From: Butyricicoccus faecihominis
Lineage (GTDB): Bacteria; Bacillota; Clostridia; Oscillospirales; Butyricicoccaceae
Length of the DNA: 64,000 nucleotides
Assembly (NCBI RefSeq): GCF_024462775.1
Contig: NZ_JANGCE010000019.1
Location: forward strand, 1-64,000
Reading direction: 5' to 3'
Below are positions 33,573-56,062 of this stretch, in pieces. A program made the translations under genes and the position numbers. The notes beneath the pieces are model-generated. The model did not search any database. It was given only the letters and a program-made list of their open reading frames with translations, and was not told where the DNA came from. The stretch's first letter is position 1, and every line of letters starts with the position of its first letter.

Positions 33573-33587
33573 ACCAGCACCTCACCC

Positions 33588-34604: not shown

Positions 34605-34609
34605 GTTGC

Positions 34610-36133: not shown

Positions 36134-36170
36134 CGCTTTTCCTCTCCCAAACTGAAGCAAGTATTTTATT

Positions 36171-36205: not shown

Positions 36206-36229
36206 AACAAATGCTATTGCAATAGATTT

Positions 36230-37474: not shown

Positions 37475-37501
37475 ATGAACCCCTCCAATCATTGAATAGC
37501 A

Positions 37502-38413: not shown

Positions 38414-38446
38414 ATTTTACCTCACTGTTTTCATTGATTGAGTGTA

Positions 38447-39504: not shown

Positions 39505-39522
39505 CTATTTAATTATGATGTG

Positions 39523-39551
39523 AATATACCACACCAGATTTTTAATGTCAA
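39523..39551 (-). promoter_or_regulatory. Sigma-A promoter of the locus 1 operon
   Basis: TTGACA (39546-39551) and TATATT (39523-39528), 17 bases apart on the minus strand. The start at about 39516 puts hairpin P1 within the first dozen bases or so of the transcript. The DNA from 39552 to 39735 is AT-rich with no gene. Confidence 0.85.
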
Positions 39552-40368: not shown

Positions 40369-41508
40369 TTATTTAGCCGCACGTAATAGACTGAACACCT
40401 GTAGCGCGGTTAGAAACAGGTTGTGGGCTGCATTTTCAGGATGCAGCGCGTGCTCCAGCGTGCAAGGCGCTTGCAGGATTGGAAAGTATGCGTCGATCCC
40501 CTCCGCATTCAGCGCCTCCGCATCGGGCGCAGCACTGCCGCAAAAGGCGACTACCAGTGCACCGAAGCGTTTTGCCATGCGGGCGACCGTGGCCGGAGCC
40601 TTTCCCATCGCGGTCTGCGCGTCCAGTCGGCCTTCGCCTGTGATTACCAGATCGGCATCCTGCGCATGTGTTGTGAAGCCTACGTTGTTGAGAATCACCT
40701 CGGCTCCAGACTGTAACTTTGCGCCGCAAAAGGATACGAGCGCATAGCCTAGACCGCCAGCCGCGCCGCTGCCCGGCATATTTTCTGTGGCAATTCCATA
40801 TTTTTCACGAACGATGCCGGCAAGTCGCGACAGCGCCTCATCCAGCAGCTGCACCGTACCGGCATCCGCTCCCTTTTGCGGCCCAAATACGGCGGAAGCG
40901 CCGTTGGGACCGCATAGCGGGTTCGAGACGTCGCATGCCACTTGCAGGGTGGATACCGCAAGTCGCGGGTCGAGCCCGGTACTATCGATATCCGACACCC
41001 TCATCAAATCCGCTCCAAGCATGCCGACCGGATCGCCATTTTCGTCCAGAAACTTGCAGCCGAGCGCTTGCAGCATGCCCATACCGCCGTCATTCGTCGC
41101 GCTGCCGCCGATACCGATCATAAAATGGCGGCAGCCCGTGTCCAACGCGTCGCGTATCAACTCGCCCACGCCATAGGTTGTGGTATAAAGTGGATTTCTT
41201 TGCTCCTCCGGCACCAGCGCCAACCCGGCCGCCGACGCCATTTCCACAACCGCTGTTCGTCCGTTTTCAAGGATACCGTACAGCGCGTTAACCGGTTTCC
41301 CCAACGGTCCTATGACGCGCACCCGCCGTTTTTCCCCGTGCAGACTATCCACGACCGCATCCACCGTTCCCTCCCCGCCGTCCGCCAATGGTAAAACCGT
41401 GATTTTTGCGTTTGGAAACACCTGTCGCGCTGCCGCCGCCACGTTTCTCCCTGCTTGCAACGATGTCAGGCTCTCCTTAAAGGAATCGATCGCGATCACA
41501 ATTTTCAT
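40369..41508 (-). CDS. Glycerate kinase, GlxK/GarK family (locus 2)
   Basis: A 379-residue paralogue of 26814-27965 with the same hallmarks (IDSFKESLTS, PLADGGEGT, IGIGGSATNDGG, TGEGRLDAQT). It should phosphorylate D-glycerate. AAAGGAG precedes the ATG. It is second after the hydroxyacid dehydrogenase (28-base gap), whereas the gene order is reversed in locus 1. GC content is visibly higher than in the locus 1 copy. Confidence 0.93.
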   Translation of the reverse strand: MKIVIAIDSFKESLTSLQAGRNVAAAARQVFPNAKITVLPLADGGEGTVDAVVDSLHGEKRRVRVIGPLGKPVNALYGILENGRTAVVEMASAAGLALVPEEQRNPLYTTTYGVGELIRDALDTGCRHFMIGIGGSATNDGGMGMLQALGCKFLDENGDPVGMLGADLMRVSDIDSTGLDPRLAVSTLQVACDVSNPLCGPNGASAVFGPQKGADAGTVQLLDEALSRLAGIVREKYGIATENMPGSGAAGGLGYALVSFCGAKLQSGAEVILNNVGFTTHAQDADLVITGEGRLDAQTAMGKAPATVARMAKRFGALVVAFCGSAAPDAEALNAEGIDAYFPILQAPCTLEHALHPENAAHNLFLTALQVFSLLRAAK

Positions 41509-41536
41509 ATGCTTCTCCTTTGCCGCGCATACGCGA

Positions 41537-42502
41537 TTACGAATTGACGACGTTTATAGGCGCGCCCGCTAAAAAGGCTTTCAGGTTTTCCATCGCGCAT
41601 GTCAGGATGCGCGCGCGGCTCTCTTTTGGGGCCCAAGAAATATGCGGTGTGATGATACAGCGCGGTGCGGAAAGCAGCGGATTATCTCCGCTGATCGGTT
41701 CGCTGGATACTACATCGACTGCCGCCGCCGCTACTTTTCCCGCATGCAGCGCATCCGCCAAATCCTGCTCCACGATCAGCGGGCCGCGGCTGTTGTTAAT
41801 CAGAATAACGCCGTCCTTCATCTTGGCGATGGTTTCCCGGTTAATCATCCCCTCGGTCTCGGGGAACAGAGGGCAATGAAGGGTGACCACGTCGGAAAGC
41901 GCCAACAGACCATCCAGATTGGTGTACTGTGCGATCTGTTTTCCCGTGTCGGTCTGTACCGCGTCAAACGCAAGCACATGCATGCCAAGCGCCTTTGCGA
42001 TGCGTCCGGTCGCTTGTCCGATTCGGCCAAAGCCGATAATCCCGATCGTTTTGTCAAACAGCTCAATCAGCGGATAGTCCCAAAAGCACCAGTCGCTGCA
42101 CTGTTCCCACTTGCCATCATGTACCGCTTGATCATGGTGGCCGATGTGATGGCAAATCTCCAGCAGCAGCGCAATGGCGAACTGACTGACTGAAGCTACG
42201 CCATACGACGGCACGTTCGTCACCGGTATGCCCTTCTCTCGCGCGTAGCGGTAGTCGACTACGTTGTAGCCCGTTGCCAATAGGCCGATAAACCGGATCG
42301 AGGGACAGCGGTCAAGCACGTTACGCGTAACAGGCGTTTTATTGGTGTAGACGATTTCTGCATCGCCAATGCGGCGAATGATTTCCGTTTCATCCGAAAG
42401 CGGCGTCCGATCGTAAACGGTCAATTCTCCGAACGTTTCCAGACCGCTCCAACTTAGATCTCCCGGGTTTTCGGTGTAACCATCCAAAATGACAATTTTC
42501 AT
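41537..42502 (-). CDS. D-2-hydroxyacid dehydrogenase, hydroxypyruvate/glycerate type (locus 2)
   Basis: A 321-residue paralogue of 25789-26751. GFGRIG dinucleotide motif, NNSRG (Arg), VVSSEP (Glu) and PHISWAP (His) are all present. Expected to reduce hydroxypyruvate or a similar 2-oxoacid. It follows a strong terminator (42575-42599) and may use a promoter formed by TTGTTT and TATACT (17-base spacing; -10 at 42547-42552), so it may not depend on the main operon. Confidence 0.9.
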   Translation of the reverse strand: MKIVILDGYTENPGDLSWSGLETFGELTVYDRTPLSDETEIIRRIGDAEIVYTNKTPVTRNVLDRCPSIRFIGLLATGYNVVDYRYAREKGIPVTNVPSYGVASVSQFAIALLLEICHHIGHHDQAVHDGKWEQCSDWCFWDYPLIELFDKTIGIIGFGRIGQATGRIAKALGMHVLAFDAVQTDTGKQIAQYTNLDGLLALSDVVTLHCPLFPETEGMINRETIAKMKDGVILINNSRGPLIVEQDLADALHAGKVAAAAVDVVSSEPISGDNPLLSAPRCIITPHISWAPKESRARILTCAMENLKAFLAGAPINVVNS

Positions 42503-42574
42503 AGCATTTCTCCCATTGCATGTCGATATAGTTGCGGGTTATTCTCAGTATACCGCGCCCTTTTTCAAAAAACA

Positions 42575-42599
42575 AGGAGCCGCCGGTACGGCGGCTCCT
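42575..42599 (-). terminator. Intrinsic terminator at the end of the main locus 2 operon
   Basis: Eleven-base perfect stem (42575-42585 with 42589-42599), three-base loop, followed on the minus strand by TGTTTTTTG. It lies just after the phosphotriesterase-like gene. Confidence 0.88.
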
Positions 42600-42609
42600 C
42601 ACGTTCAGC

Positions 42610-43716
42610 TTACTCAATGGTCAATAGTCTCTGCGGATTATCCTTGATGATCGCGTCGAACTCATCGTTTTCAACGCCTACCAGATTGCATATCTCACGG
42701 AACCTGCCGATGATGTGATTGTAGCAATATCCCCCGCAGGTGGAAAATCGGTGTCTCTCAGCGGAATCGTGCGATAGCAAAATCCTATCCTGATAGCCAC
42801 GCACGATCAGCTTATATACCGCCTGCGCGCGCTGCTTATCGGAGGCGTTGCACCATGCGCCATAAGTCATTTTCTCGTAGCTCATGTTGCCGACGCCGTC
42901 AAAGGAGATATACGCCCCCTTGTCCATCAGCGCCTGCAAATGTCCGAAAGCGTCGCTTTCGCTCCAATTATCCTGAATTAAGCAGGCTTCTCTGTGACTG
43001 AAGGCAAACTTGTTAAGGTCCATACCTTCTTCCTCAAACACTTTCAGGATTTTAAAATCATGCCGCCACTGGTATACGTTGACATGCACGTTGACCGGCA
43101 GACCTGTTTCCTTTGCCGCGATCGCGGCGGCGCGCAGGCACTTCCATTCGTCGTCGGTAATGACGTCGCTTGTACCGATCTCGCCGATGATCCCAGGCTT
43201 AATACCGGTTTTGCCATAACCGTTACGAATGATATCAATATACTGCCGCGCTAGATCGTCCACAGTCTGCTTGCTAAAATCGGTCTTTCCGTTTGGTGGG
43301 AAGTGCCCGACAGCGCCGACGATATAAATGCCGGACTGTTCGGCCAAAGCCTTGATGCGTTCCCAGTGCTCGTCGGTGGGCTTGCCCTCCGCATAAAACT
43401 TGGTGTTGTCGTCACAGGTCAGGTCGACGACCGTGCCGCCGCCGGCCTTCTGAAAGCGCCTGAGCTCCTCAACAAAGAGCGCATCGTCATAATTGAGCAA
43501 ATTATCGCGTACACCATAGAAGTTTTCATTCAGGATGTAGTGCAGATTGTCCAGTGTGACCGGCTGCTCGAAATACTGCCGTTTTTCAGGGTCCGAGTCG
43601 GGCATTTCATAGTGATTGAGCCAGTTCAGCGTGTGCTCGTGTGGAAGCGTATGTCCCAGCATCTTTGGCTCGACAGGCCCCTGCACGGTCATAACCTTGC
43701 CTAAATTTTCTTTCAT
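42610..43716 (-). CDS. Phosphotriesterase-family metal hydrolase (locus 2)
   Basis: A 368-residue paralogue of 28223-29356. Metal ligands: LPHEHT, GIIGEIG, VNVHVNVY, FSHREACL and LLSHDSAER. The C-terminal substrate loop differs from locus 1 (STCGGYCYNH against TEFGGNGYSH), consistent with a related but different substrate. It is the last gene of the main locus 2 operon. AAAGGGA precedes the ATG. Confidence 0.88.
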   Translation of the reverse strand: MKENLGKVMTVQGPVEPKMLGHTLPHEHTLNWLNHYEMPDSDPEKRQYFEQPVTLDNLHYILNENFYGVRDNLLNYDDALFVEELRRFQKAGGGTVVDLTCDDNTKFYAEGKPTDEHWERIKALAEQSGIYIVGAVGHFPPNGKTDFSKQTVDDLARQYIDIIRNGYGKTGIKPGIIGEIGTSDVITDDEWKCLRAAAIAAKETGLPVNVHVNVYQWRHDFKILKVFEEEGMDLNKFAFSHREACLIQDNWSESDAFGHLQALMDKGAYISFDGVGNMSYEKMTYGAWCNASDKQRAQAVYKLIVRGYQDRILLSHDSAERHRFSTCGGYCYNHIIGRFREICNLVGVENDEFDAIIKDNPQRLLTIE

Positions 43717-43740
43717 GGCCGATTTCCCTTTCCCAAGCTT

Positions 43741-44733
43741 TTAATAATCCTTATAATCCGCTACATTCGATGCGTCGACCGCGCTGAACGGAACGATTTT
43801 ATCCGTTGGCTCCTTGCCATCGCGAATCTCTATGCAAAGTTCAATAAACGCTTTCGCCTGCGCCTTGTAGTCCTGTAAGACACTCATGGACATTTCACCC
43901 GCCGCGATGGAATCCTGCGCTTCGGCGGAAGCGTCGAATCCGGCCACGATCACATCGCCGTCGAAACGGTCGGCCGCTTTCATCGCTTCGATGGCCGGCA
44001 GCGCGGTCTCATCAGCGGTTGTCACAACACACTTGATGTTGTCGTATGCCTGCAGCCAGTTTTCCATGATCTTCAGGCCTTCGTCGCGGTTGTTATGCGC
44101 ATCCTCGCGGGCGGCGACGGTAACGTCGTCACGTCCGGCGTCCTTTAGCGCCGTTAGCATGCCTTCCTCGCGGGCCAGCGATTGTTGATCGCCGTCATGG
44201 CTGGCCATATAAAAAATCTCTGCGTTTTGCGGGAGATGCTCTGCCAGCCACTGCCCCTGCAAATAGCCGCCGTCATAATTCTCCGATCCGACATAGGCAT
44301 ACTTCTCATAGCCGTCCGCCCGGTCGGTCAAACCGTTCAGCAGACCCACGCACCATGCGTCCGCTTCTGCACAGGCGGTTGCGACCGGCATGCAAGCATC
44401 GGAGTCATCCCAAATGCCGCCGACGACCTGCGCCCCTTGCGCCAGCATGGATTCCGCGTTGCTGATCTCGGTATAAACATCACGGTTTGCCTGTGTCAGC
44501 AGCACGGTCATGCCCTCGGCCTCCCCGTACTCCTTGATCGCGTTGGCAAAATTCATGCAATAGACGCAGGAGCTTGTGGAATATTCGCAGCCAATGATAA
44601 ACTCCTTTGCGCTTCCCGCGGAGACGCTGTCCGCGCCGCTCTCCTCTGCGCTTGGCGCCGCCGGTTCGCAGCATGCCGACAGTCCGCCCACAAGCATCAG
44701 TGCCGCCACCAAAATGCTGATTGCTCTTTTCAT
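43741..44733 (-). CDS. Sugar ABC transporter substrate-binding lipoprotein (locus 2)
   Basis: A 330-residue Peripla_BP_4-type receptor. The signal peptide ends with lipobox LSAC followed by a second Cys, and a short acidic linker follows. The mature part has three more cysteines near its start (CEYSTSSCVYC), unusual for a sugar receptor. Later motifs include VVTTADETALPAIEAMK and VIVAGFDASAEAQDS. TAAGGAGG precedes the ATG. It is placed after the permease here but before the ATPase in locus 1. Confidence 0.92.
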   Translation of the reverse strand: MKRAISILVAALMLVGGLSACCEPAAPSAEESGADSVSAGSAKEFIIGCEYSTSSCVYCMNFANAIKEYGEAEGMTVLLTQANRDVYTEISNAESMLAQGAQVVGGIWDDSDACMPVATACAEADAWCVGLLNGLTDRADGYEKYAYVGSENYDGGYLQGQWLAEHLPQNAEIFYMASHDGDQQSLAREEGMLTALKDAGRDDVTVAAREDAHNNRDEGLKIMENWLQAYDNIKCVVTTADETALPAIEAMKAADRFDGDVIVAGFDASAEAQDSIAAGEMSMSVLQDYKAQAKAFIELCIEIRDGKEPTDKIVPFSAVDASNVADYKDY

Positions 44734-44786
44734 GATTTTTCCTCCTTAGATATTGGTTTAATGTGAATGAAATTTAGCTTGCATAC

Positions 44787-45758
44787 TCATTTGTTGCTTT
44801 TTTTCGTATTGATATCAATAATGACCGCCACAGCGATCAGCAAACCCTTTGCGATCGTCTGCCAGTTACTGTCAAGCCCCATCAAAATCATGACGTTATT
44901 GATGATACCGACGATGATGGCGCCGACGATGACGTTGAACATCGAGCCGTGGCCGCCGCTGAAGCTGGTACCGCCGACCACAGTCGCCGTGATCGCGTCG
45001 AATTCATACCCGCCGGTCGTGATGTTGGGCGTTGCCGCCATCATGCGCGACGTAAGGATCAGCCCCGCGATACCGACCAGCGCGCCGTTGATCACATAGG
45101 TCAGTCGAAGGATTCGGTTCACATTGATACCCGCCGCGATACTAGCCTTCAGGTTGCCGCCAATGGCGTACATGTATAGGCCAAGTCTGGTTCGTTTGAG
45201 CATAAACTGCATAAGAATTAGTACAAGCGCGAGCAAAACCAGCATATTGGGTATGAAATCAAACAACTTACCCTGACTTAACCATTTCAGCTTATCCAAC
45301 CCTTTTATCGTTTTGCCGCCGCTGTAAAGATAGCTCATGCCTTCGGCAAGGCTCATAATGGCAAGCGTTGCGATAAACGGCGGCAGCTTGAACCAAGTAA
45401 TCATGCTACCGCTGATGTAATTGAGCACGATGCCGATCAGCATGGCGACGGCAAAGCATACGATCACGGAATTGGTTTGCAACAGCGCATTGGCTGCAAA
45501 GCAAGAGGAGACAGCCGCGACAGCCGAGGCGGACAGATCGATACATCCGCTGACGAGCAATATCGTTTCGCCCGCCGCAATGACCGCGACCGCCGTGATC
45601 TGCTTCATGACGTTCGTTAGGTTGGAAGCTTTCAAAAAATTGGGGTTTGCGATACAAGCCCCGAGAAACACGATGATCATGATCAAGAAAATGCCGTATT
45701 TCTGATAAATTTCGCCTACGCTGCTTTTGTTGAGCTTGGAACCTACGCCATTCTTCAT
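44787..45758 (-). CDS. Sugar ABC transporter permease, RbsC-type (locus 2)
   Basis: A 323-residue BPD_transp_2 permease with about ten hydrophobic segments; KLPPFIATLAIMS and YAIGGNLKASIAAGI are the expected conserved loops. It overlaps the ATPase gene by four bases (ATGA). As the only permease in locus 2 it probably forms a homodimer. Confidence 0.93.
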   Translation of the reverse strand: MKNGVGSKLNKSSVGEIYQKYGIFLIMIIVFLGACIANPNFLKASNLTNVMKQITAVAVIAAGETILLVSGCIDLSASAVAAVSSCFAANALLQTNSVIVCFAVAMLIGIVLNYISGSMITWFKLPPFIATLAIMSLAEGMSYLYSGGKTIKGLDKLKWLSQGKLFDFIPNMLVLLALVLILMQFMLKRTRLGLYMYAIGGNLKASIAAGINVNRILRLTYVINGALVGIAGLILTSRMMAATPNITTGGYEFDAITATVVGGTSFSGGHGSMFNVIVGAIIVGIINNVMILMGLDSNWQTIAKGLLIAVAVIIDINTKKSNK

Positions 45759-47257
45759 AGTTTTCTCCCCCCATCGATGATGGTTTTCATGATACCGTCC
45801 TGCGTCGCGTTTTCGTGCGGAAATTCGTCCAGAATACGGCCGCTGTCCATCACGATGATGCGCTGGCTGACATTGATGACCTCCGGCATTTCCGAGCTGA
45901 CGATGATGATCGCCATGCCCTGCGCCGCAAGATCTTTAATAATCTGATAGATCTCCTGTTTCGCACCGATGTCGATGCCTCGCGTCGGCTCATCCATAAT
46001 CAGAACCTTGACATCCTTTCGGATCAGCCACTTGGCCAGCACAACCTTTTGCTGATTACCGCCGGAAAGAAACGCGGTCTTTTGGTGAATAGACGGCGTT
46101 TTGATCCGTAAAAGCTCTGTTTGCCCGCTCACCTCCCGCGCAATGCGTTTGAAATCCAAACCGCCGTATTTTGAGTATTCCTTTGCGCTGGGGAGCATCA
46201 CATTTTCACTCACCGTAAGATCGCCCACAAACCCATGGATGGCGCGGTCCTCAAACACCAGACAGATTCCGGCCCGAATTGCGTCTTGGGTTGAGCGTAT
46301 CTTGACTTTTTCTTTGTTGATAAAAATACTGCCGCTTTGGTATGAATCCATGCCAAAAAGCGCGCGCATCACTTCGCTGCGTCCCGCTCCGACCATGCCC
46401 GAAAAACCCAGCACCTCGCCCCGATGCAGTGTAAAAGAGATATTTTCGAATACGCCCTGTCTGGTCAGGCCCTCCACGCGGAGCACCTCTTCCGTGCCGC
46501 ATGTTCCCACGGGCGGATACACCTTACCCATATCGCGGCCGACCATCATTTGTATGATCTTAGCCTCCGAAGCTTCTTTTCTTGGAATGGAGCCGATCAG
46601 CTTTGCATCGCGCAGAACGGTAATCGCGTCGCACAGCTCCATAATCTCATCTAGCTTATGACTGATGTAAACGACCGCTATCCCTTTAGCCTTGAGCGCC
46701 CTGACCTGCTCAAACATTTTCTGAGTTTCCACCGTGGTAAGCGACGAGGTGGGTTCGTCCATGATCACAACCTCCGCGCCGCGTGAGATCGCTTTGATGA
46801 TCTCTACCATTTGACACTGAGCGATACTGATATCGCTCATTTTGGTTGTCGGTTCCATTTGTAACTTGAGCTCGCTGATCAGTTCTTTTGTCTTTTGACA
46901 GCGCGTTTTCTTGCTGATCACACCGCCTGTGGCGGGCTCCCGCCCCAGAAATATATTTTCCTCAATGGTCAGTCCGGGCACATAGGCCAGCTCCTGCGGG
47001 ACGATCGATATTCCCGCGTCCAGCGCTTCCCGCTCGCTACGAAAGTCAACAACTCGCCCCTTATAGCGGACCTCGCCCGCATCCTTTTTATAGGTGCCGG
47101 ATAGTATTTTCATTAAGGTAGATTTGCCCGCGCCGTTTTCACCGACCAGTGCGTGAATACTGCCTCGCCGCAGCGTTAAGCTTACGGAATCCAGCGCTTT
47201 AACGCCGGGAAAGCTTTTTGTAATGTCCTTCATTTCAACGATCACGTTGTTTTCCAT
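45755..47257 (-). CDS. Sugar ABC transporter ATPase, RbsA-type (locus 2)
   Basis: A 500-residue protein with two ATPase domains. Domain 1: Walker A GENGAGKST, VVIMDEPTSSL Walker B and a VVYISHKLDE H-loop. Domain 2: GMVGAGRSEV, signature LSGGNQQKVVLAKWL, VLIMDEPTRGID. The segment GSIHALVG...TIEENIFLGREP is the closest match in this window to the N-terminal domain of the locus 2 kinase (GEIHAVVG...SAAENIFLTK). Confidence 0.95.
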   Translation of the reverse strand: MENNVIVEMKDITKSFPGVKALDSVSLTLRRGSIHALVGENGAGKSTLMKILSGTYKKDAGEVRYKGRVVDFRSEREALDAGISIVPQELAYVPGLTIEENIFLGREPATGGVISKKTRCQKTKELISELKLQMEPTTKMSDISIAQCQMVEIIKAISRGAEVVIMDEPTSSLTTVETQKMFEQVRALKAKGIAVVYISHKLDEIMELCDAITVLRDAKLIGSIPRKEASEAKIIQMMVGRDMGKVYPPVGTCGTEEVLRVEGLTRQGVFENISFTLHRGEVLGFSGMVGAGRSEVMRALFGMDSYQSGSIFINKEKVKIRSTQDAIRAGICLVFEDRAIHGFVGDLTVSENVMLPSAKEYSKYGGLDFKRIAREVSGQTELLRIKTPSIHQKTAFLSGGNQQKVVLAKWLIRKDVKVLIMDEPTRGIDIGAKQEIYQIIKDLAAQGMAIIIVSSEMPEVINVSQRIIVMDSGRILDEFPHENATQDGIMKTIIDGGRKL

Positions 47258-47272
47258 AGCTCCCGCCTTTCC

Positions 47273-48250
47273 TCATATGCACGGCGTGATTTGCATGCGT
47301 TTGTTCCGGCTTTCCAGAAAAGCCTCCACCTGTTTCGCGCTTTCAATCCCGGCGGTTGCGCCGACCCTCCCCACAGCCAGTGCGCCCGTGGCCGAAGCGT
47401 ATGCCGCACAAGCCTCCAGCGGCAGTCCGTGGATCAGCCCCGACATGAATCCGGCCGCATAGCAATCGCCCGCGCCGGTCGTATCGATCGGATCAACATA
47501 GAAGGGCTGCTGAAAAAAACGCGTTTTCTTATTTTTGATCAGGCTTCCTTTTGCACCGAACTTGATCGCCACCGTGCCGATGCCTAAATTCAAAAAGTAA
47601 TCCGCCATTTCATCGGGATCACGCTTGCCGGACAGCATGGCTGCTTCCCGTTCGTTGGGAAACAAGTAATCCAGATAGGGCAACGCGTGCCGCAAGCCGT
47701 CTAAAGAGCAGTGCGCCGCAGTCGGGCCAACATCGGCGCAGGTGATCGCGCCGTTTTGCTTCGCCGTTTGGAATAGATGTGTGAGCGCCCGATCGTCAAA
47801 CTTTTCATGCACAAAAATGCTGCCGAACGCGATGAGCCGCGCCCTCCGTATCACCTCGTAATCCACATCGTCCTCGCAGAACTCGGTGCGTGATGTTTTG
47901 TTTTTGCTGATCGTATAGATCCGTTTGTCCTTCGCGCCAATCAAAATATTATTGGCCGCCGTCGGCGCATCCGGATCGCGGTAGACCGATGCAACGTCCA
48001 CCCCCGCCGCTTCGGCTTGCTCCAGCAAAAAACGGCCGATAAAATCGTCGCCTACTCGACTGATCAAACCCACGCGGTTTCCCAGCTTGCTCATGGCCAT
48101 CGCTTCGTTTACCGCGTCGCCGCCCGCGCTGTAGGTGATCGATTCCGCAAGATTTGGCTCGGTTTCCAAAAACGTATTGAAATCCAAGCCGCTTGTTGAA
48201 ATATCCAGCAGACAGGTGCCCAGACAGATGGCGTCAAATTTTTTATCCAT
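47273..48250 (-). CDS. PfkB-family carbohydrate kinase (locus 2)
   Basis: A 325-residue ribokinase-fold kinase, paralogue of 29398-30369. Glycine pair in YSAGGDAVNEAM and catalytic DTTGAGDCYAAG. CGGAGGG precedes the ATG. It lies between the type b dehydrogenase and the ATPase genes. The substrate is probably an oxidised sugar derivative made by the dehydrogenases. Confidence 0.93.
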   Translation of the reverse strand: MDKKFDAICLGTCLLDISTSGLDFNTFLETEPNLAESITYSAGGDAVNEAMAMSKLGNRVGLISRVGDDFIGRFLLEQAEAAGVDVASVYRDPDAPTAANNILIGAKDKRIYTISKNKTSRTEFCEDDVDYEVIRRARLIAFGSIFVHEKFDDRALTHLFQTAKQNGAITCADVGPTAAHCSLDGLRHALPYLDYLFPNEREAAMLSGKRDPDEMADYFLNLGIGTVAIKFGAKGSLIKNKKTRFFQQPFYVDPIDTTGAGDCYAAGFMSGLIHGLPLEACAAYASATGALAVGRVGATAGIESAKQVEAFLESRNKRMQITPCI

Positions 48251-48264
48251 GGTATCCCTCCGTT

Positions 48265-49308
48265 TCAGAATTTGATAACGGCTTTGACCACGCTCTGCTT
48301 GTTGTGCTCCGCCTGTTCAAACGCAAGCTGTGTATCCTCAAAGGCAAATTCATCGGTCGCGAGCTGGTTGATATCGATTCGCCCGCTCGCGATCGCCTCG
48401 ATCGCCGTGGGATAAATGTTGGCGTAGCGGAATGTAAAAATCAGCTTGACCTCTTTTTCCGTCAATTCGTAAAGCGTAAGCGTCGTCGGCGCATTGACGC
48501 TGCCGACCTGTAGGATCGTACCGCCGCGTCCAATGAGCTTTGCAGCAAGCTGCACGGTTTCCGGCCGCCCGGCTGCTTCCAATACAAAGTTCGGCAGGCC
48601 GCCGCCCAGCAGCGTCCGAACCTTTGTGAGCGGATCTTCACGCGCCGAGTTGATCACCGCGTCCGCGCCCAATTCCAATGCTTTTTGCAAACGGTTATCG
48701 AATACATCAACCATGATGATCTTGGAAACGCCGCGGGCTCGTGCCGCCAGCAGCAGCGTCAGACCGATACAGCCCGAACCCAAAATAACGGCTACATCGC
48801 CCAGACCGATACCGGCGCGCTTCGTCGCGTGCAGGCCGATGGAAAGCGGCTCGATCAGCGCGCCCGCTTTGGTATCGACATTTGCGGGGAGTTTGAACGC
48901 CATATGCGCCGGATAGTCGATATAGCGGCGCAGGGCCCCGTTGAAATACGGCGGACACGCCATAAATTTTACCTCCGGGCACAGGTTGTACCGGCCGCTT
49001 TTGCAGAACGCGCACCTACCGCAAGGAACGCCCGGTTCCAGCGCAACCTTATTCCCCACCGTTAAGTGCGTGACGTTTTTGCCGGCCCGCACCACCTCGC
49101 CCGCGCATTCGTGGCCAATGATAAAGGGGAGCTTATGTGCGCCGTTTGCAACCTCATGGTTGTGGTCGCCGAAAAAGAATAGGTCGGAACCGCAAATGCC
49201 CATGTATTCCGTACGTACGATCACCTGATCGTCGCCGCAATCCGGCATTGGAATTTCCCGCTTTTCCATTTTTCCTACGCCTACCTGATAAAACGCCTCG
49301 TTTTTCAT
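48265..49308 (-). CDS. Zinc-dependent alcohol dehydrogenase, type b (locus 2)
   Basis: A 347-residue paralogue of 30412-31452. GICGSDLFFF and GHECAGEVV for the catalytic zinc, CGRCAFCKSGRYNLC for the structural zinc, and GSGCIGL for the nucleotide. It follows the type a gene by 11 bases, and GGAGGGG precedes the ATG. Confidence 0.93.
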   Translation of the reverse strand: MKNEAFYQVGVGKMEKREIPMPDCGDDQVIVRTEYMGICGSDLFFFGDHNHEVANGAHKLPFIIGHECAGEVVRAGKNVTHLTVGNKVALEPGVPCGRCAFCKSGRYNLCPEVKFMACPPYFNGALRRYIDYPAHMAFKLPANVDTKAGALIEPLSIGLHATKRAGIGLGDVAVILGSGCIGLTLLLAARARGVSKIIMVDVFDNRLQKALELGADAVINSAREDPLTKVRTLLGGGLPNFVLEAAGRPETVQLAAKLIGRGGTILQVGSVNAPTTLTLYELTEKEVKLIFTFRYANIYPTAIEAIASGRIDINQLATDEFAFEDTQLAFEQAEHNKQSVVKAVIKF

Positions 49309-49319
49309 CTGTTCCCCTC

Positions 49320-50384
49320 CTATTCCGGCAGCAGCACTGCTTTGGCGACCTGCTGGGATCGCATCATTTGATACCCAGTTTTATATTCACTAAGCGGTAA
49401 AACCGCGCCGATCAGGCTTTGCAGATCAAGCTGTTTGGTTTCGAGCAGCCGCATCACCTTGGCCCACGAGGTGCCGTTATAACCCATGTGGCCGATCACC
49501 GTGATCTGTTTATCAATCAGCGGCAGCAGCGAATATCCATACGCTCCGGGCGGATTGCCGATACGGACGAATTTTCCATCGTGCTGCAAATACTCCATGG
49601 CCTGATGCATGACAGCGGGCGCACCCGCCGCGTCCACCACGATGCCAACGCCGTCCTCTCCCGCGAGCTGCCGCACGCGGGCGGGGATGTCCTCCTCATC
49701 CGCAACCAGCAGATGTGTCGCGCCAAATTGGTGAGCCAAGGGGAAGCGCTTTTCCACATCGCTTTTCATGCCGATGCAAATGATGCTGCTCGCACCCGCA
49801 AGCTTTGCCATTTGCAAGCTGTATAAGCCGAGCGGGCCAAGCCCGACGATCACGACCGTGTCCCCCGGCCGGACTTGTGCTTCCTGTATCATGGCACGGT
49901 ACGCATTGGCGGCGGGCTCCATAATCGCGCCTTGCTCAAAGGAAACACAGTCCGGAAGCTTCATGAGGCAGCTTGGGTAAAGCTTTAAAATATCGCCGGG
50001 GATTCTGCAATATTTTGTAAAGCCGCCGTCCATGCCGGAACCAAGCGTTTTGCGGTGCAGACAATGCACAAAATCGCCGCGCAGGCAAGCCGAGCATTGG
50101 CCGCACGCATAACCGGTGTTATCGGAAACGACACGGTCGCCGATTTTCCAGCGGCCGCTCACACGGCTGCCCAGTTGGCAAATAACGCCGCAAAATTCGT
50201 GCCCCAGTACGAACGGATGATCCGCGTTAAACGCACCGTTTTCCCAGTGCAGGTCGGCGCCGCAGATGCCGGCGGCCCTCACTTCAACCAAAATGTCGTC
50301 TTCGCCGCAAACTGGAACCGGTATTTCCTGAAGCGCCAGCTTGCCGCGTTCCAGATACCGCAGCGCGGTCATGGTCTCACCCAT
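49320..50384 (-). CDS. Zinc-dependent alcohol dehydrogenase, type a (locus 2)
   Basis: A 354-residue paralogue of 31490-32557. GICGADLHWE and GHEFCGVI (catalytic zinc), CGQCSACLRGDFVHC (structural zinc), GLGPLGL (nucleotide). The ATG overlaps the aldolase stop by one base (TAATG) and has GAGGAGG 8 bases upstream. Both loci place type a directly before type b. Confidence 0.93.
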   Translation of the reverse strand: MGETMTALRYLERGKLALQEIPVPVCGEDDILVEVRAAGICGADLHWENGAFNADHPFVLGHEFCGVICQLGSRVSGRWKIGDRVVSDNTGYACGQCSACLRGDFVHCLHRKTLGSGMDGGFTKYCRIPGDILKLYPSCLMKLPDCVSFEQGAIMEPAANAYRAMIQEAQVRPGDTVVIVGLGPLGLYSLQMAKLAGASSIICIGMKSDVEKRFPLAHQFGATHLLVADEEDIPARVRQLAGEDGVGIVVDAAGAPAVMHQAMEYLQHDGKFVRIGNPPGAYGYSLLPLIDKQITVIGHMGYNGTSWAKVMRLLETKQLDLQSLIGAVLPLSEYKTGYQMMRSQQVAKAVLLPE

Positions 50385-51295
50385 TACTGAAACCTCCTCG
50401 CCGTCACTGTTTCCGTTTCAGAGACCGGAATGGTAAGGGTCTGCGTGTTGAATACCTCCAAAATATGCCGTGTTTCCGAAACAACGGATTCCATGCCCAC
50501 TTCGAGCATCTGACGGGAGGTCAGCCGCTTGCCCGCCTGTGCATTCGAGAATTCCCGCATAGCGTCCGCACAGTTGATCATCATACCGGAGATATAGTTG
50601 ACCTTATTGATCCCGCCTGCGACAGCCTTTGAAAATTCCTCATCCGGCAGGCCGGAGCCCCCGTGCAGGACCAAAGGCAGATCGCCGACGCGGTCGCGGA
50701 TCTCCGTCAGGCGTGGAATATCCAGATGCGGCGTACCCTGATAGGGGCCATGGTTAGAGCCAAAGGCGACGGCCAGCGCGTCAACGCCGGTAAGGTTTGC
50801 GAACCGCTCCGCTTCCTCGGGCTTCGTATAGAACTGGGGCTTTGCGATCCCCTCGTCGGGTGTGCCCTCGTAACCGCCCACATGGCCGATCTCGGCTTCC
50901 ACGCTCACGCCGCAGGCATGCGCGGCTTCCACAACCTTGCCGACCAGCGCCACATTTTCTTCAAACGGCAAGGTGGAGCCGTCGATCATCACGCCGCCGC
51001 AGCCGTAATGGATCGCCCGCATGCAAAGCTCATAACTGCCGGCGTGGTCGATCATCACACAGACCGGGACCTTGGCGCTACGCGCCATTTCCAGCAGCAT
51101 CCGCAGATGTACGTCTTGCCGGAAATCAGCCGGGAATGTAAAATCACCGGCAAACATCAGGATCAGCGGGCGGTTCATTTGCTCACAAGCGAGCAGACAC
51201 CCCTGCGCTGTGAAAAAGTCATGTCCGTTCAGCGCGGGCACGGCGTATTTTTTCGCAACAGATTCGCTTAGTATCTCTTTTAACGTTACTAACAT
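50384..51295 (-). CDS. Class II fructose-bisphosphate-type aldolase (locus 2)
   Basis: A 303-residue paralogue of 37502-38413, the most conserved pair in the island. MIDHAGSYEL (catalytic Asp, zinc His), EAEIGHVGGYEG, SNHGPYQGTPHLD, LHGGSGLPDEEF and GINKVNYISG are identical to locus 1. This points to the same bond cleavage in both pathways. AAGGAG precedes the ATG. Confidence 0.92.
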   Translation of the reverse strand: MLVTLKEILSESVAKKYAVPALNGHDFFTAQGCLLACEQMNRPLILMFAGDFTFPADFRQDVHLRMLLEMARSAKVPVCVMIDHAGSYELCMRAIHYGCGGVMIDGSTLPFEENVALVGKVVEAAHACGVSVEAEIGHVGGYEGTPDEGIAKPQFYTKPEEAERFANLTGVDALAVAFGSNHGPYQGTPHLDIPRLTEIRDRVGDLPLVLHGGSGLPDEEFSKAVAGGINKVNYISGMMINCADAMREFSNAQAGKRLTSRQMLEVGMESVVSETRHILEVFNTQTLTIPVSETETVTARRFQ

Positions 51296-51307
51296 GATGC
51301 CGTCTCC

Positions 51308-52258
51308 TTAACAGTCCAGATACGTTTCGATCGCTTTGTTGATGGTTTTCATTTCTTCATCCGTCAGCGTCCAGTCAAAGCCGCCGCAGTTTTCATTCGC
51401 TTCTCGGGTATTGCGCGAGCCGCAAAGCGAGGTATCGACAAAATCGCGCTGTGTGTTCCAATTCACCGCGATCTGCGCCAGCGCCGCGCCGCGTTTTTCA
51501 GCAATCACATCCAGTTCTTTGAGCAGTGCCATCACCTTAGAAAACATCGGCTCGCGGAAATACGGGAAAAAGGCGACGCGCGCGTCGTCCGGCGCAAAAT
51601 TCGGAAGGGACCGGTACTGTCCGGTCAGCACACCGCTGGCAAGGCTCGAATAGGTCATCGTACCCATGCCCCGTCTGTGCGCCCACTTGAGGAATTCCTC
51701 GTTCGAGCGGTCGCACATGTTGTAACACATCTGCACCGCCTCGATCTTCCCATACTTTTCGGCTTCCAAAATCTCTTCCTTGGTAAAGTTGGAAACACTG
51801 ATGTGGCCGATCTTGCCCTGCTGTTTCAGCTCGTTCAGCGCGTCCATTGTTTCCTCGATCGGCGTGTTTTGATCGGGCCAGTGAATCATGTAATTATCGA
51901 TATAGTCGATACCCAGATTGCGAAGCGATTCCTCACAGCACTTTAAAATAAAATCCCGGCTGCCGCAGCGAATAAAAATGTTGCCGTAAATATTCATGGT
52001 GCCGCATTTTGTCGTAATATACAGCTTGTCGCGGATCCCCTTGATGCACTCACCCACTATTCGCTCGCAGTCTCCTGCTGAATAGGACAGCGCCGTATCC
52101 AAATGGTTTACGCCGTTCTCCACCAACGCGTGAACGGTGTCGATCGCGTCTTTCTTCTCGATCGCTCCCCATTCCTTGCCCCCAAGCGTCCAGGAACCGA
52201 TACTCAGACAGGATATATCCCATCCGTAATTGCCAAATGATTTGTAACGCATTGTCAT
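51308..52258 (-). CDS. Aldo/keto reductase (locus 2)
   Basis: A 316-residue paralogue of 38447-39382 with HLDTALSYS (Asp, Tyr), TTKCG (Lys) and MIHWPD (His). It is first in the locus 2 operon. The AGGAGG is 4 bases from the first ATG and about 10 from the second (two codons later), so the exact start is open. It lies about 20 bases after the leader terminator. Confidence 0.93.
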   Translation of the reverse strand: MTMRYKSFGNYGWDISCLSIGSWTLGGKEWGAIEKKDAIDTVHALVENGVNHLDTALSYSAGDCERIVGECIKGIRDKLYITTKCGTMNIYGNIFIRCGSRDFILKCCEESLRNLGIDYIDNYMIHWPDQNTPIEETMDALNELKQQGKIGHISVSNFTKEEILEAEKYGKIEAVQMCYNMCDRSNEEFLKWAHRRGMGTMTYSSLASGVLTGQYRSLPNFAPDDARVAFFPYFREPMFSKVMALLKELDVIAEKRGAALAQIAVNWNTQRDFVDTSLCGSRNTREANENCGGFDWTLTDEEMKTINKAIETYLDC

Positions 52259-52275: not shown

Positions 52276-52365
52276 AAAAAAACAGAATGCCCCCGCTTAT
52301 TACAGCGAAAGCATTCTGCACTTTCTCTCATCACATTCGGCAAAAAACCCTTCATGAGTCCCGCC
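52276..52365 (-). promoter_or_regulatory. ANTAR-type leader: hairpins and terminator (locus 2)
   Basis: On the minus strand P1 (52339-52365) folds as ACUC-AUGAA-GGGU extended by G-U pairs and a GGC/GCC clamp. Further on, GAAAGUG and UGCUUUC can pair, and this overlaps the 5' arm of a strong terminator (52304-52318 with 52283-52297) ending in seven U. The same GAAAGUG...AUGCUUUCGCUG stretch occurs in the third leader at 55149-55170. The loop sequences fit the ANTAR consensus only partly. Confidence 0.65.
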
Positions 52366-52390: not shown

Positions 52391-52420
52391 AGTATAACCT
52401 CACCCCAAGTCCTTTGTCAA
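52391..52420 (-). promoter_or_regulatory. Sigma-A promoter of the locus 2 operon
   Basis: TTGACA (52415-52420) and TATACT (52391-52396) on the minus strand with an 18-base spacer. It starts the leader described at 52276-52365 and lies about 50 bases after the kinase gene. Confidence 0.85.
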
Positions 52421-52472: not shown

Positions 52473-54311
52473 TCAATCTTTACTATTCCGCGCGTCATAC
52501 ACATGCGAGGTCGGAAACAGGATCCGCACCGTCGTTCCCGCGTTATTCGCAAAATCCACCGTGCCATGCAGCCCCGCAATAATGCTTTTGACCACGGACA
52601 CGCCAATGCTCCCCGACAGCTCCATTTGTTCCCGATTCTTCAATCCGCATCCATTATCTGCGATGATCAACTGTATGTTCTTACCATCGTTGTGACAAAA
52701 GACGCGGATCACATTATCCTTACGCCCCTGAAAAGCGTGCTTCATGCAGTTACAAATCAGTTCATTGACCACCAGCGATATCTGCGTCGCCTTATTGTAT
52801 GGAATACTGATGTTTTCCACGTCCAGATCGATGCGCACATCGTCTCGCTCATATATTTTGATCACTTCTTTCACGATATTGTAAAGATTTACAATGCTAC
52901 CCTCGTTTTTATCTTTGGCCAGCAGGTTATGCACGATCGCTATACTGGAAATACGCGATATGATGGATTGAAAAATCTCATCGATGTCGCCGCCCTTTTC
53001 CTTGTAGTGCAGCTTCTGCATATAGATCATGGAGGTGATCATTTGTAAATTATTCTTTATTCTATGGTGACTTTCTTGCAGTAGCATCGAACGGCCGATC
53101 AAGTTGGAGGTTTCAATCGCAATCGCGATCTCTTTGCCAAAAGTTTTTAAATACCGCTCATCGGTCTCGCTGAGCAGACGGTTCTCCCGGAAGGATACTT
53201 GAATCAGCCCGCTAATCTGTTCATCACGGTTGACCGGCATACAAACAATGGTGCGTATCTCGCGGTTCTCCTGAAAAAGGGCTTCATATCCCGCGTTTTG
53301 TCCGGATAGGATTACAAGCTTCCCTTCACACACCAGCCGGCAGATCGCGTCGCTTTTCAGACTGGGCACTGACAATTTTGTCTCGTTGTCCCGTATCGTG
53401 TCTATTACGCCGTTTACCTCTTCGTTGAGCAGGTAGATCACGCTGTTTTGCGCACCCAATACTTTGGTGATATCCTTTGCAAGATACAGCAGTTCTTTTT
53501 TCAGCTCCGAACTCGAAGATAAAATATCGCGCGCATTGACAATGGTTTGCAAAATATTCCATTCCTTGTCGCGTGAATCTCGTTGAAGCGGCGCCCAGCC
53601 TGACAGCATGTACATGATCTCTTTGGGATTTTTGATCACATCCTCGGTCTTGGCGGTTATTTTAATCAGCCCGTCATCCAAAACCGATATTCTGTCCGAG
53701 ATATGCAGTGCATCGTCCAGATGGGAGGTCACAAACACGATGCTTTGTCCGCGTTGTTTCATTTCCCGCAAGATATTGAGCAGCCCGCCTCGGTTGTCCT
53801 TATCAATATCCAGAAAAGGCTCGCTAAGCACCACGATAGGGCAATTTTTGATATAAGCGCGCAGAAATTCAAGCATTTTCCGATCTTCGCGCGCCATTTC
53901 ACGGACTTTTTTCCGCAAATCCAACTTGATCTGGAACTGCTCAAGCAGCTCCTCACATCGCCGCAGCTCCTGCCTCTTTTTTAAACGAAAAACACCTGTC
54001 TTCGTCAAAAAAATATTTTCCGCAGCCGATAAGTACGGGAATTGGTTCGCCCCCTGACGAACCACATCGATCCTGCGCTCCTTCCTGCAAAACCGCGCCG
54101 GCTCGCCCAATAAGAAGCATTGACCGGAATAGTCCGACAAATCGCCGCTCAATAAATCGACAAACTTTCGCAGTTCGTGCGTGGCCATGCCGACTACCGC
54201 GTGGATTTCCCCCTTTTGCAGCGCGAAACTGAGATTGGAAAATAGCTGCTCTCCGTCGCTGCGAACAGAAATATCCCGCATTTGCAGCACCGTTTCCGCC
54301 GTTTTATTCAT
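52473..54311 (-). CDS. Hybrid sensor: degenerate ABC ATPase - GAF-like - HisKA_2 histidine kinase (locus 2)
   Basis: A 612-residue soluble protein, paralogue of 23015-24874. Residues 5-225 are RbsA-like: GEIHAVVG, then a broken Walker A (MATHELRKF, no Lys), SAAENIFLTK, a changed signature (EMAREDRKML), Walker B-like IVVLSEPFLDID (Asp replaced, Glu kept) and an intact H-loop His197 (VTSHLDDA). Residues about 255-400 look like GAF. ESHHRIKNNLQ (413-423) is the phospho-acceptor box; N-box NELICNCMKHA (516-526) and DNGCGL (552-557) form the ATP site of the kinase. It overlaps the regulator gene by four bases. Absence of membrane segments implies a cytoplasmic cue, possibly the transporter itself. 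Confidence 0.9.
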   Translation of the reverse strand: MNKTAETVLQMRDISVRSDGEQLFSNLSFALQKGEIHAVVGMATHELRKFVDLLSGDLSDYSGQCFLLGEPARFCRKERRIDVVRQGANQFPYLSAAENIFLTKTGVFRLKKRQELRRCEELLEQFQIKLDLRKKVREMAREDRKMLEFLRAYIKNCPIVVLSEPFLDIDKDNRGGLLNILREMKQRGQSIVFVTSHLDDALHISDRISVLDDGLIKITAKTEDVIKNPKEIMYMLSGWAPLQRDSRDKEWNILQTIVNARDILSSSSELKKELLYLAKDITKVLGAQNSVIYLLNEEVNGVIDTIRDNETKLSVPSLKSDAICRLVCEGKLVILSGQNAGYEALFQENREIRTIVCMPVNRDEQISGLIQVSFRENRLLSETDERYLKTFGKEIAIAIETSNLIGRSMLLQESHHRIKNNLQMITSMIYMQKLHYKEKGGDIDEIFQSIISRISSIAIVHNLLAKDKNEGSIVNLYNIVKEVIKIYERDDVRIDLDVENISIPYNKATQISLVVNELICNCMKHAFQGRKDNVIRVFCHNDGKNIQLIIADNGCGLKNREQMELSGSIGVSVVKSIIAGLHGTVDFANNAGTTVRILFPTSHVYDARNSKD

Positions 54312-54895
54312 TTGATTTTCTCGCTTACATCTACGATCTTTTGCGCCACCACGGCCATTTTGGTGTTGGTATCCGCACTCTTTTTTTGCAGAGCTTTCAT
54401 TGCTTGCTGCTCGGTTAAGCCAAATTGATCCATCATCACACCCTTGGCCCGCTCGATGATAATCCGCTCCTTCAACTTCGATTCCGCTGTTTTCTGTCCC
54501 TGCTCCGCCTTCCTGCGCTTTTGAAATTGGCTTACCGCGATTTTGAGGGCCGAGCGCAACTCATATTCATCTATCGGCTTTTGCAGGTAAGCGAAAACAC
54601 CGGCCGCGCAAGCGCGCTCCACATAGTTTTCATTCCGGTAGCCGGTCACGATGATCGTAGGGATCTCTTGTTCTTGATTGACGGTATCCGCCGCCGTGAT
54701 CCCATCCACTACCGGCATATCGATATCCATGATCACAATATCCGGCTGTTGTTTACGGATTCCGTCGATTGCGGCTTGTCCGTCCAACGCGGTGCCGACA
54801 ACCTCATGGCCGCATATCTTTACAAGCGCTTCAAAGCCCATGAGTACGATCGGCTCATCCTCTGCAATGAACACCCGTAATTTTTTATCACCCAT
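54308..54895 (-). CDS. ANTAR-domain response regulator (locus 2)
   Basis: A 195-residue REC-ANTAR regulator. Receiver residues: ED at 12-13, phospho-Asp57 (IMDIDMP), Thr84, Lys106. ANTAR domain about 138-192 (ERAKGVMMDQFGLTEQQAMK). The ATG at 54893-54895 follows AAAGGGG; six in-frame codons upstream include that site. It is expected to bind leader hairpins in the island once phosphorylated by the overlapping kinase. Confidence 0.92.
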   Translation of the reverse strand: MGDKKLRVFIAEDEPIVLMGFEALVKICGHEVVGTALDGQAAIDGIRKQQPDIVIMDIDMPVVDGITAADTVNQEQEIPTIIVTGYRNENYVERACAAGVFAYLQKPIDEYELRSALKIAVSQFQKRRKAEQGQKTAESKLKERIIIERAKGVMMDQFGLTEQQAMKALQKKSADTNTKMAVVAQKIVDVSEKIK

Positions 54896-55070: not shown

Positions 55071-55099
55071 TTGACAACTTCTATGTAATATGTTTTAAT
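55071..55099 (+). promoter_or_regulatory. Sigma-A promoter of the plus-strand gene
   Basis: TTGACA (55071-55076) and TTTAAT (55094-55099), 17 bases apart. It is divergent from the regulator promoter about 100 bases away. An extra TTGACA-like copy lies at 55059-55064. Confidence 0.8.
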
Positions 55100-55108
55100 C
55101 GGTACAAC

Positions 55109-55196
55109 GAAATTGAGTTTATGGCAGATTCAATTTCTTTGTGGTAAGAAAGTGACGGATGCTTTCGCTGTATAGGCGAAAGCATCCGTTTTTTTT
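55109..55196 (+). promoter_or_regulatory. ANTAR-type leader: hairpins and terminator (plus-strand gene)
   Basis: P1 (55109-55137) is an 11-bp stem with apical UAUGGCA, the same seven bases as the locus 1 P1. A second hairpin AAAGUG-ACGGA-UGCUUU (55149-55165) uses bases that also form the 5' arm of the perfect 14-bp terminator (55155-55168 with 55176-55189, eight T). The two are mutually exclusive. The leader therefore has the antitermination layout and shares elements with both other leaders. Confidence 0.75.
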
Positions 55197-55225: not shown

Positions 55226-56062
55226 ATGAACTACCAATTTAAAATCGACCCACAAAAGTTACCTGCGCTGACTGAGGAACAAAAAGCTTGCCCTTATGCA
55301 GCGCTATATGAACGGGATATCGCCGAACCCGAAGCGGATATCCTCGCTGCCTTTGCGCCCGATCACGAGATCGCTTCCAGTTTGGCGGTCATGCCGGAGG
55401 ACTTATGCAAAATTTTAGATCCGAATTTCCACCCCACAATGGGTTATTGCGTCATGCCTAACGGCGTCGGCTATTCCTGTACAGTGGTTCGATTGCCCGG
55501 GGCAGTTCCAGAAATGTATGATTACCGGCTAAACTTGGTTTTCGCAGAAGATATGGGGTTTATTGTGGAATATCCCGGCTTCCATTTTGAGCATTACGAC
55601 GGTCTGTGTATAGAGGACAACGGCGCGGGACCCAAAGCGCTGATCCTTGACCGCAATTATTCCTTTGCCGAATTGGGTTTTCCCGGCGATCCCACGAAAA
55701 TCAATTCCGATATTCTCAGCATTTCCGCCCACGATCAGGATATCGTGGCGGTGGAAGGTCCCATCGACCCGAACCGCGACAAGGGCGTGCTGATTTTGGT
55801 CAACAAGCGGATAGCAGGCGGCATGGAGCAGTGGTGGTTCGTCTATTCCGGCTTGCATATTCAAGACGGCAAATCCGCCGTTGTACTGGCTGCGGACGAA
55901 GTGATCTCCGCCGAATCCTGCCGCAGAAAGGGCCTGCATCTTGCCTATGAAGCTGTCAACCAGCTTCAGTATTTGCCCATGCTCATGGAGCAGTATCCGT
56001 TCCGCGCGTTCACGCCTCCGCGCCTCTGGCCCGAGCGCTACCGCTTCCTGCAGCATAAATAG
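55226..56062 (+). CDS. Putative DAPG/phloretin hydrolase-like protein
   Basis: A 278-residue soluble protein, the only clear plus-strand gene of the window. The central GYCVMPNGVGYSC followed by PGAVPEMYDY recalls the PhlG/phloretin hydrolase family (C-C bond hydrolases of acylated phloroglucinols, with a zinc site of His and Glu), for example phloretin hydrolase of Eubacterium ramulus. Possible ligands include FHFEHYD and SGLHIQD. This match is by eye and partial, so the function is tentative. AAGGAG lies 8 bases before the ATG. Expression is probably gated by the leader terminator at 55155-55196, and the gene is divergent from the ANTAR regulator pair. Confidence 0.4.
   Translation: MNYQFKIDPQKLPALTEEQKACPYAALYERDIAEPEADILAAFAPDHEIASSLAVMPEDLCKILDPNFHPTMGYCVMPNGVGYSCTVVRLPGAVPEMYDYRLNLVFAEDMGFIVEYPGFHFEHYDGLCIEDNGAGPKALILDRNYSFAELGFPGDPTKINSDILSISAHDQDIVAVEGPIDPNRDKGVLILVNKRIAGGMEQWWFVYSGLHIQDGKSAVVLAADEVISAESCRRKGLHLAYEAVNQLQYLPMLMEQYPFRAFTPPRLWPERYRFLQHK

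Follow-up and report, generated by a model that had tools for sequence, protein, structure and literature searches.

EutVW of Enterococcus pairs a HisKA_2 kinase (EutW) with a REC-ANTAR regulator and acts on a leader with two hairpins, the second of which (P2) overlaps a terminator. A similar arrangement is found in a stretch of 64,000 nucleotides of Butyricicoccus faecihominis (positions 1 to 64,000 of contig NZ_JANGCE010000019.1, hereafter the window), with the differences that the sensor has a domain derived from the first nucleotide-binding domain (NBD1) of CUT2 importers and that the targets are genes for sugar-type uptake and catabolism. We lean towards regarding it as a two-component antitermination switch for a CUT2 importer and catabolic genes, in which the input domain of the kinase comes from an importer-type NBD1. 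The fusion kinase would probably switch on the adjoining pump genes by preventing early termination of their RNA. Sensors that descend from a component of an ATP-binding cassette (ABC) transporter also occur with the ANTAR regulators of NasS-NasT and AmiC-AmiR, AmiC being kin to such a component just as NasS is. In these two systems a binding-protein-like partner releases the ANTAR protein and there is no kinase, whereas here an ATPase domain is fused to one. According to PMC3795266, NasS resembles the binding protein NrtA, and hence transporter parts have precedent as ANTAR sensors. PMC3369931 and PMC8934654 describe EutV targets as dual hairpins of which the second overlaps the terminator; a conserved loop G makes the only base-specific contact (PMC8934654), and ANTAR targets lie mostly at nitrogen-metabolism genes (PMC3369931). 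A transporter part or partner may also be the input of a kinase, as in CbrA, with its SLC5 domain, and in flux sensing by BceS-BceAB (PMC7096432 and PMC7438565). CbrA has a membrane transporter domain and Bce uses an antimicrobial-peptide ABC transporter, in contrast with the soluble sugar-importer-type ATPase domain found here. A literature search, thin on subscription papers, found no description of an ABC-NBD/GAF/HisKA_2 kinase, as a previous reading of the window from its letters alone (the sequence-only reading) had remarked, and no precedent in the literature searched for the recruitment of an ATPase domain as an ANTAR sensor.

The kinase in question (kinase 1; coordinates of all features are in Table 1) has 612 amino acids, and its open reading frame (ORF) overlaps that of the REC-ANTAR partner by 4 bp. 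Pfam identifies, all above cut-off, ABC_tran at residues 25-166 (35.1 bits, cut-off 25), GAF at 278-399 (roughly 278-400; 31 bits, cut-off 22.4), HisKA_2 at 413-484 (57.2 bits, cut-off 22.3) and HATPase_c at 508-601 (35.6 bits, cut-off 26.4), and in the partner Response_reg and ANTAR. The sequence-only reading had proposed this order of domains and the overlap of the two genes, and both are confirmed. It had also likened the N-terminus to RbsA-type importers, an assignment that NCBIfam and a phylogenetic tree (see following) narrow to the NBD1 of CUT2 importers: the five top NCBIfam matches are all CUT2 ATPases (YtfR, xylose, AraG, LsrA and GguA). Residues 5-225, which that reading had allowed might prove unrelated to ABC proteins, are placed among them by ABC_tran, the CUT2 profiles and the tree in agreement. 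A structure prediction points the same way. In an AlphaFold model built from six sequences (mean pLDDT 73.7, pTM 0.46), Foldseek aligns the N-terminal part with many ABC ATPases across some 220-260 columns (e.g., 2pcj, target-normalised TM 0.78). The model also matches the blue-light kinase EL346 (4r3a), and 4r39 and 4r3a rank first in a PDB sequence search. A chance similarity of the N-terminus to ABC proteins is ruled out by Pfam, NCBIfam, the PDB search, the tree and Foldseek.

The family of ABC-domain kinases, as found here, comprises 17 loci, three of them in this genome (copies in G004, of the same species, are excluded). A second pair (kinase 2) lies in the window beside an operon that is a near-duplicate of the one next to kinase 1, and the third, on a different contig, adjoins a transporter with an ATPase in two separate halves. 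These two pairs, the leaders and the lysine kept in some relatives (see following) go beyond the sequence-only reading. The genome has four ANTAR genes, and three are partners of ABC-domain kinases. The fourth (L014, 8401-9006) is beside genes resembling glutamine synthetase and glutamate synthase, named by eye, and no kinase was recognised near it. Among the other genomes are Candidatus Equihabitans merdae and Halanaerobium congolense (Clostridia), Mesobacillus campisalis and Gracilibacillus halophilus (Bacilli), at loci L015-L018, together with G006, G360, G581, G811, G890, G1007, G1077, G1103, G1154 and G1161. The family is present in at least 3 of 87 genomes of Butyricicoccaceae, at least 3 of 394 of the order (with a narrower query) and at least 2 of 391 of the class (with two queries); in the phylum it is full-length in at least 8 of 398 (15 pass the threshold, seven of them only with partial matches). 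These frequencies are lower bounds, with 3-14 candidates scored per genome. A plasmid search with the kinase gave two records, covering 41% of the query and the kinase part only.

The architecture is uniform. ABC_tran, HisKA_2 and HATPase_c are present at E ≤ 0.001 in all 16 kinases scanned, each of three GAF models matches five kinases in one set of ten, and GAF is found in all six others. Each of seven tabulated kinases has a single ABC_tran stretch, so none has a two-NBD layout. The motif HHRIKN is invariant in ten aligned kinases. REC-ANTAR is found in all 16 visible partners (the G006 contig begins at the kinase, leaving the partner off the contig), and one receiver Asp is invariant among them. 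By their domains, the pairs are thus classed as a HisKA_2/REC-ANTAR two-component system. The kinases, kinase 1 included, are probably soluble, because none of the 16 has a membrane-helix-like stretch (19-residue hydropathy; the highest value is 2.02, at residues 355-373 of the L015 kinase, and the others reach 1.01-1.75). At L121 (8566-10419) the frame of a family kinase is interrupted in the assembly, giving two ORFs.

The tree includes 49 ABC domains from the kinases and from CUT2 ATPases (the G1007 kinase, with an interrupted frame, is left out of the tree and of the motif counts, and the Gracilibacillus RbsA, in two ORFs, out of the tree and of the distances). The 16 kinase NBDs cluster as a single clade (100/97) amid N-terminal domains from CUT2 ATPases, nested in groups with NBD1s at 89/88 and 82/91, while the C-terminal NBDs of 13 full-length RbsAs form a separate clade (100/98). 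As judged from this tree, the ABC domain of the kinases is a descendant of the NBD1 of CUT2/RbsA-type ATPases and, since there is one clade, most simply of a single fusion. Repeated fusions, each kinase with its own RbsA, are unsupported for the same reason. The tree has weak points: the root has 69/28, and the long branches HK_Equi and HK_G360 meet. Constraining the kinases and all N-type NBDs to group together is rejected (p = 0.0019), because the split NBD2s of the C4 and G006 loci group with their own NBD1s. The N-terminal 230 or so residues thus group with the NBD1 of RbsA, XylG, AraG and YtfR; unlike these ATPases, the kinases have no NBD2, have GAF and kinase domains fused and have in most cases a degenerate ATP site.

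The extent of this degeneration bears on the possibility of a nucleotide- or energy-sensing NBD, with ATP binding or hydrolysis gating the kinase. The Walker A of kinase 1 reads GMATHELRK, against GENGAGKST in the window RbsA, so the absence of the lysine, as originally read, holds. The lysine is gone in 10 of the 16 kinases, both window kinases included, and kept in six (Halanaerobium, G1077, G1161, G1103, G811 and G1154); the full GxxGxGK[ST] is present in four (G811, G1103, G1154 and G1077). DEP is found in three kinases, the Q-loop Gln in five and the H-loop His in two (kinase 1 and G811). Kinase 1 keeps Gln and His and has SEP for DEP, kinase 2 lacks Lys, Gln, DEP and His, and G811 is the only kinase with Walker A, Q-loop, Walker B and H-loop all intact. 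While G811 and the relatives with a full Walker A would fit such a sensor, the loss of the lysine and of the H-loop His in most of the family makes it a very improbable explanation. Nucleotide binding, which the sequence-only reading had offered as one option, is unlikely for kinase 1 and possible for relatives with intact motifs, e.g., G811. Between RbsA NBD1 and the ten lysine-less NBDs, mean conservation falls in Walker A (0.97 to 0.02), in the Q-loop (1.00 to -0.11) and, less steeply, over all columns (0.45 to 0.21), and is kept in the strand after the H-loop (0.56 and 0.53). Judging from these values, the family NBDs retain their fold and most have lost the ATP site, with no permease interface singled out.

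The association with transporters is well supported by gene linkage. CUT2-type transporter genes are present at all 17 loci, two of which are broken off by contig ends, and this answers the search for the same domain order and for co-occurrence with RbsA/RbsC that had been recommended. With window queries, a permease (RbsC, E ≤ 1e-5) and an RbsA (E ≤ 1e-40) are each found in 13 of 15 family records (mean 15.6 kb). The controls were 76 loci of other kinases (mean 14.2 kb) that came from the same search, match only in the C-terminal part and were not Pfam-scanned; the same two of them have both genes. Adding queries from the family loci themselves (with L011, L016 and L101 matching themselves) gives 14 of 15 for the permease, 13 of 15 for RbsA and again 2 of 76 controls. 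The exceptions can be explained. L101 has a Bmp-type binding protein and a permease that is nevertheless BPD_transp_2 in Pfam; at L015 the contig ends inside the ATPase ORF (best match an RbsA N-half at E = 2.5e-47; 9e-39 with the RbsA query); and at L105 it ends inside the permease, with RbsA out of view. Both window loci have BPD_transp_2 permeases and RbsA, and the Halanaerobium locus carries galE-like and galactokinase genes. The tie to a sugar transporter that the sequence-only reading had proposed is thus upheld at the level of gene neighbourhood.

The family leaders adjoin the regulator genes, precede transporter or catabolic genes and contain paired small hairpins. In every leader examined, the three of the window included, P2 overlaps an intrinsic terminator. 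An initial search with the A1/G4 hexaloops of EutVW, in which the A stands three before the G, gave nothing convincing. Here, in contrast, the loops are mostly of 7 nucleotides and the A stands two before the G (in 17/17 P1 and 16/17 P2 loops, in strings picked by eye; the P2 loop of leader 1 has C where others have A); the A1/G4 pattern fits three P2 loops that begin with A, two at L101 and one at L015. A scan of 20 sources (714,512 bases, counting both strands) by a fixed rule, which asked for two hairpins, A-x-G-R loops and a terminator, recovered ten distinct family leaders, one same-species duplicate and two off-target places (L124 18441-18515 and L126 16098-16156). The rule missed eight otherwise accepted leaders (52308, L016, L017, L103, L122, L123, L124 and L126), and it is partly post hoc, because its A/G spacing was chosen with the leaders of nine loci already read.

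Seventeen leaders of 15 loci, chosen by hand, served to build a covariance model (R1), which over 339 kb yields 19 matches with E ≤ 1, these being the training leaders, the leader of L124 (E = 0.023) and a weak match at L127 (E = 0.11). R1 thus matches at 16 of the 17 family loci, 15 of which were used for building it. In its alignment 89.9% of cells pair, both sides change in 7 of 10 pairs, and the covariation score is 0.618 against 0.286 in shuffles, figures that are inflated because the alignment was fitted to the structure. In whole genomes, the four R1 matches at E ≤ 1 in this genome are all at family loci and all in training, and 10 of 12 kinase-bearing genomes have a match among the best 150 or fewer candidates scored. 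Among 25 genomes of the genus, the 22 without the kinase have no match below E = 0.13, and four have weak matches up to E = 1. Matches away from family loci are L142, L143, L146 and five in four genomes (E = 0.13-0.92); about 3 kb around L142, L143, L146 and L148, inspected by eye, showed no recognisable kinase or ANTAR gene. For a second, blind model (R2), all leaders of this genus and that of L015 were kept out of the training; its top two matches in the window are at 55115 (E = 0.041) and 39467 (E = 0.20), and it also finds L015 (E = 0.0026) and L127 (E = 0.14). An Rfam scan of the window found only a tRNA. Taken together, the leaders are strong candidates for ANTAR-type antitermination targets. 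At L101 (12888-13040) two dual-hairpin leaders stand in tandem before the Bmp-type transporter locus.

Phosphorelay and antitermination are proposed because of the protein families involved. A substrate signal would very probably lead to autophosphorylation of the kinase, the phosphorylated REC-ANTAR protein would then dimerise and bind P1 and P2, and the terminator would fail to form and the operon would be read. With less assurance, the NBD1-derived domain may sense the transporter by contact, most simply at the permease face where the NBD1 of RbsA docks, with GAF perhaps contributing a signal from the cytosol. The simplest reading is docking on the permease, because the NBD1 ancestor docks there, because the NBD was found only beside CUT2 genes in the sample, because the ATP site is mostly lost and because the two NBDs of a kinase dimer would suit a permease that is itself two-fold. 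In a more specific version, which is doubtful, the kinase homodimer with its two NBD1-like domains occupies the place of RbsA beneath the permease dimer, giving a 'sensor transporter' that does not transport; engagement of the permease by substrate-loaded binding protein would then move the coupling helices and switch the kinase directly, and the importer would be a receptor before being a pump.

Distances between NBD and permease correlate given the kinase (r = 0.38, p = 0.0015 for 15 loci; 0.35, p = 0.0055 for 13), and do so given kinase and GAF (0.29, p = 0.0155). Several observations weigh against the proposal. The permease correlates similarly with GAF (0.30 and 0.33) and, given the NBD, equally with the kinase (0.38), and with kinase and RbsA both controlled for, the NBD-permease value is no more than 0.17 (p = 0.105); for these reasons, co-inheritance of the locus can explain the correlation. 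Coupling contacts are expected in the columns after the Q-loop, and these fall from 0.50 to 0.29, about the average drop. Concerning the leaders, R1 finds none in the 3.9-kb contig of G890, nor in the whole-genome search of G890 and G1154 (best 150 or fewer candidates). R2 misses 52308, is at chance level for L012 (E = 3.1) and L011 (E = 4.0), and in whole genomes finds no leader at E ≤ 10 among the best 150 of 359-626 candidates. Finally, L127 (6449-9538) has a GAF-HisKA_2 kinase without an ABC domain, flanked by two REC-ANTAR genes, with the weak R1 match downstream.

This kinase with ANTAR partners, and the GAF covariation, speak for the main rival explanation, in which GAF is the sole sensor, of a cytosolic sugar or metabolite (a mode that soluble ANTAR kinases may use), and the NBD a remnant with a structural or dimerisation role; the GAF matches in the family and the decay of the ATP site in most NBDs fit it as well. 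On the other hand, the NBD is full length in every member found and always beside CUT2 genes, while a useless domain of 230 amino acids should have been lost in some lineages (the full-length kinase query would under-detect such members). A sole role of GAF is accordingly possible, if rather unlikely. The NBD might alternatively pair with RbsA rather than with the permease, taking the place of one NBD partner, and report on or inhibit the assembly of the ATPase. The NBD-RbsA correlation given the kinase (0.32, p = 0.01) is close to that with the permease over 13 loci, yet vanishes given kinase and permease (0.08, p = 0.29). NBDs dimerise face to face, and Walker A and Q-loop, part of the nucleotide-sandwich face, have lost all conservation, a point weakened by the D-loop (0.53 to 0.20) and the signature region (0.60 to 0.30), which drop only about as much as the average in the lysine-less NBDs. 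Pairing with RbsA is thus improbable.

The proposed contact with the importer suggests a route by which sugar outside the cell could be read by a kinase in the cytosol that has no membrane sensor, through a borrowed ATPase domain that fits the importer. It would add an ATPase domain to the ABC parts recruited as ANTAR sensors (binding proteins, e.g., NasS) and extend ANTAR antitermination to sugar-type uptake operons. The natural decay series, from intact to lost ATP sites, offers a testbed for coupling without ATP hydrolysis.

Table 1. Predicted features of the window, listed by system.
Feature	Position	Strand	Remark
Histidine kinase 1, predicted soluble: CUT2-NBD1-derived pseudo-ATPase (about 5-235), GAF, HisKA_2, HATPase_c	52473-54311	-
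REC-ANTAR response regulator 1	54308-54895	-	ATG at 54895, end at 54308
Promoter-like site TTGACA-18-TATACT before operon 1	52391-52420	-	consensus likeness by eye
Leader 1, dual hairpin: P1 52345-52361, P2 52308-52324	52308-52361	-	in R1 training set
Intrinsic terminator overlapping leader 1 P2, before AKR gene	52276-52318	-
Presumed operon 1: AKR, class II aldolase family, two zinc-type dehydrogenases, PfkB kinase, RbsA, RbsC, substrate-binding protein	43741-52258	-	dehydrogenases by eye
Operon 1 AKR gene	start at 52258	-
Operon 1 RbsA	45755-47257	-
Operon 1 RbsC	44787-45758	-
Operon 1 substrate-binding protein	43741-44733	-
Presumed operon 1 continuation: PTE-family gene, D-2-hydroxyacid dehydrogenase-like gene, glycerate kinase	40369-43716	-	dehydrogenase-like gene by eye
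Histidine kinase 2, domains as in kinase 1, ATP site further decayed	23015-24874	-
REC-ANTAR response regulator 2	24871-25437	-
Leader 2: promoter-like 39523-39551, P1 39489-39505, P2 39466-39482, terminator 39441-39472	39441-39551	-	before operon 2; fixed-rule scan, R1, blind R2 (second window match)
Presumed operon 2: AKR, aldolase family, substrate-binding protein, RbsA, two RbsC, two dehydrogenases, PfkB, PTE, glycerate kinase, hydroxyacid dehydrogenase	25789-39382	-	members outside the scan named by likeness to operon 1
Operon 2 RbsA	34610-36160	-
Operon 2 RbsC (two)	33588-34604, 32580-33572	-
Divergent leader: promoter-like 55071-55099, P1 55109-55137, P2 55148-55166, terminator 55156-55196	55071-55196	+	fixed-rule scan, R1 (in training), blind R2
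DAPG-hydrolase (PhlG)-like gene	55226-56062	+	Pfam 24.0 bits, cut-off 22.7

The genes within each of operons 1 and 2 are presumably co-transcribed. A CUT2 transporter and an ABC-domain kinase of its own accompany each of the near-duplicate gene sets at 25789-39382 and 40369-52258. No PDB entry matched the sequence of the window RbsA at E ≤ 1e-60. For the DAPG-hydrolase-like gene, NCBIfam gave no match at E ≤ 1e-15; the DAPG-hydrolase family also includes the phloretin hydrolase of gut bacteria that degrade flavonoids. System 1 may control both the AKR operon and this gene. The P2 hairpin in the leader of the DAPG-hydrolase-like gene closely resembles that of the AKR-operon leader.

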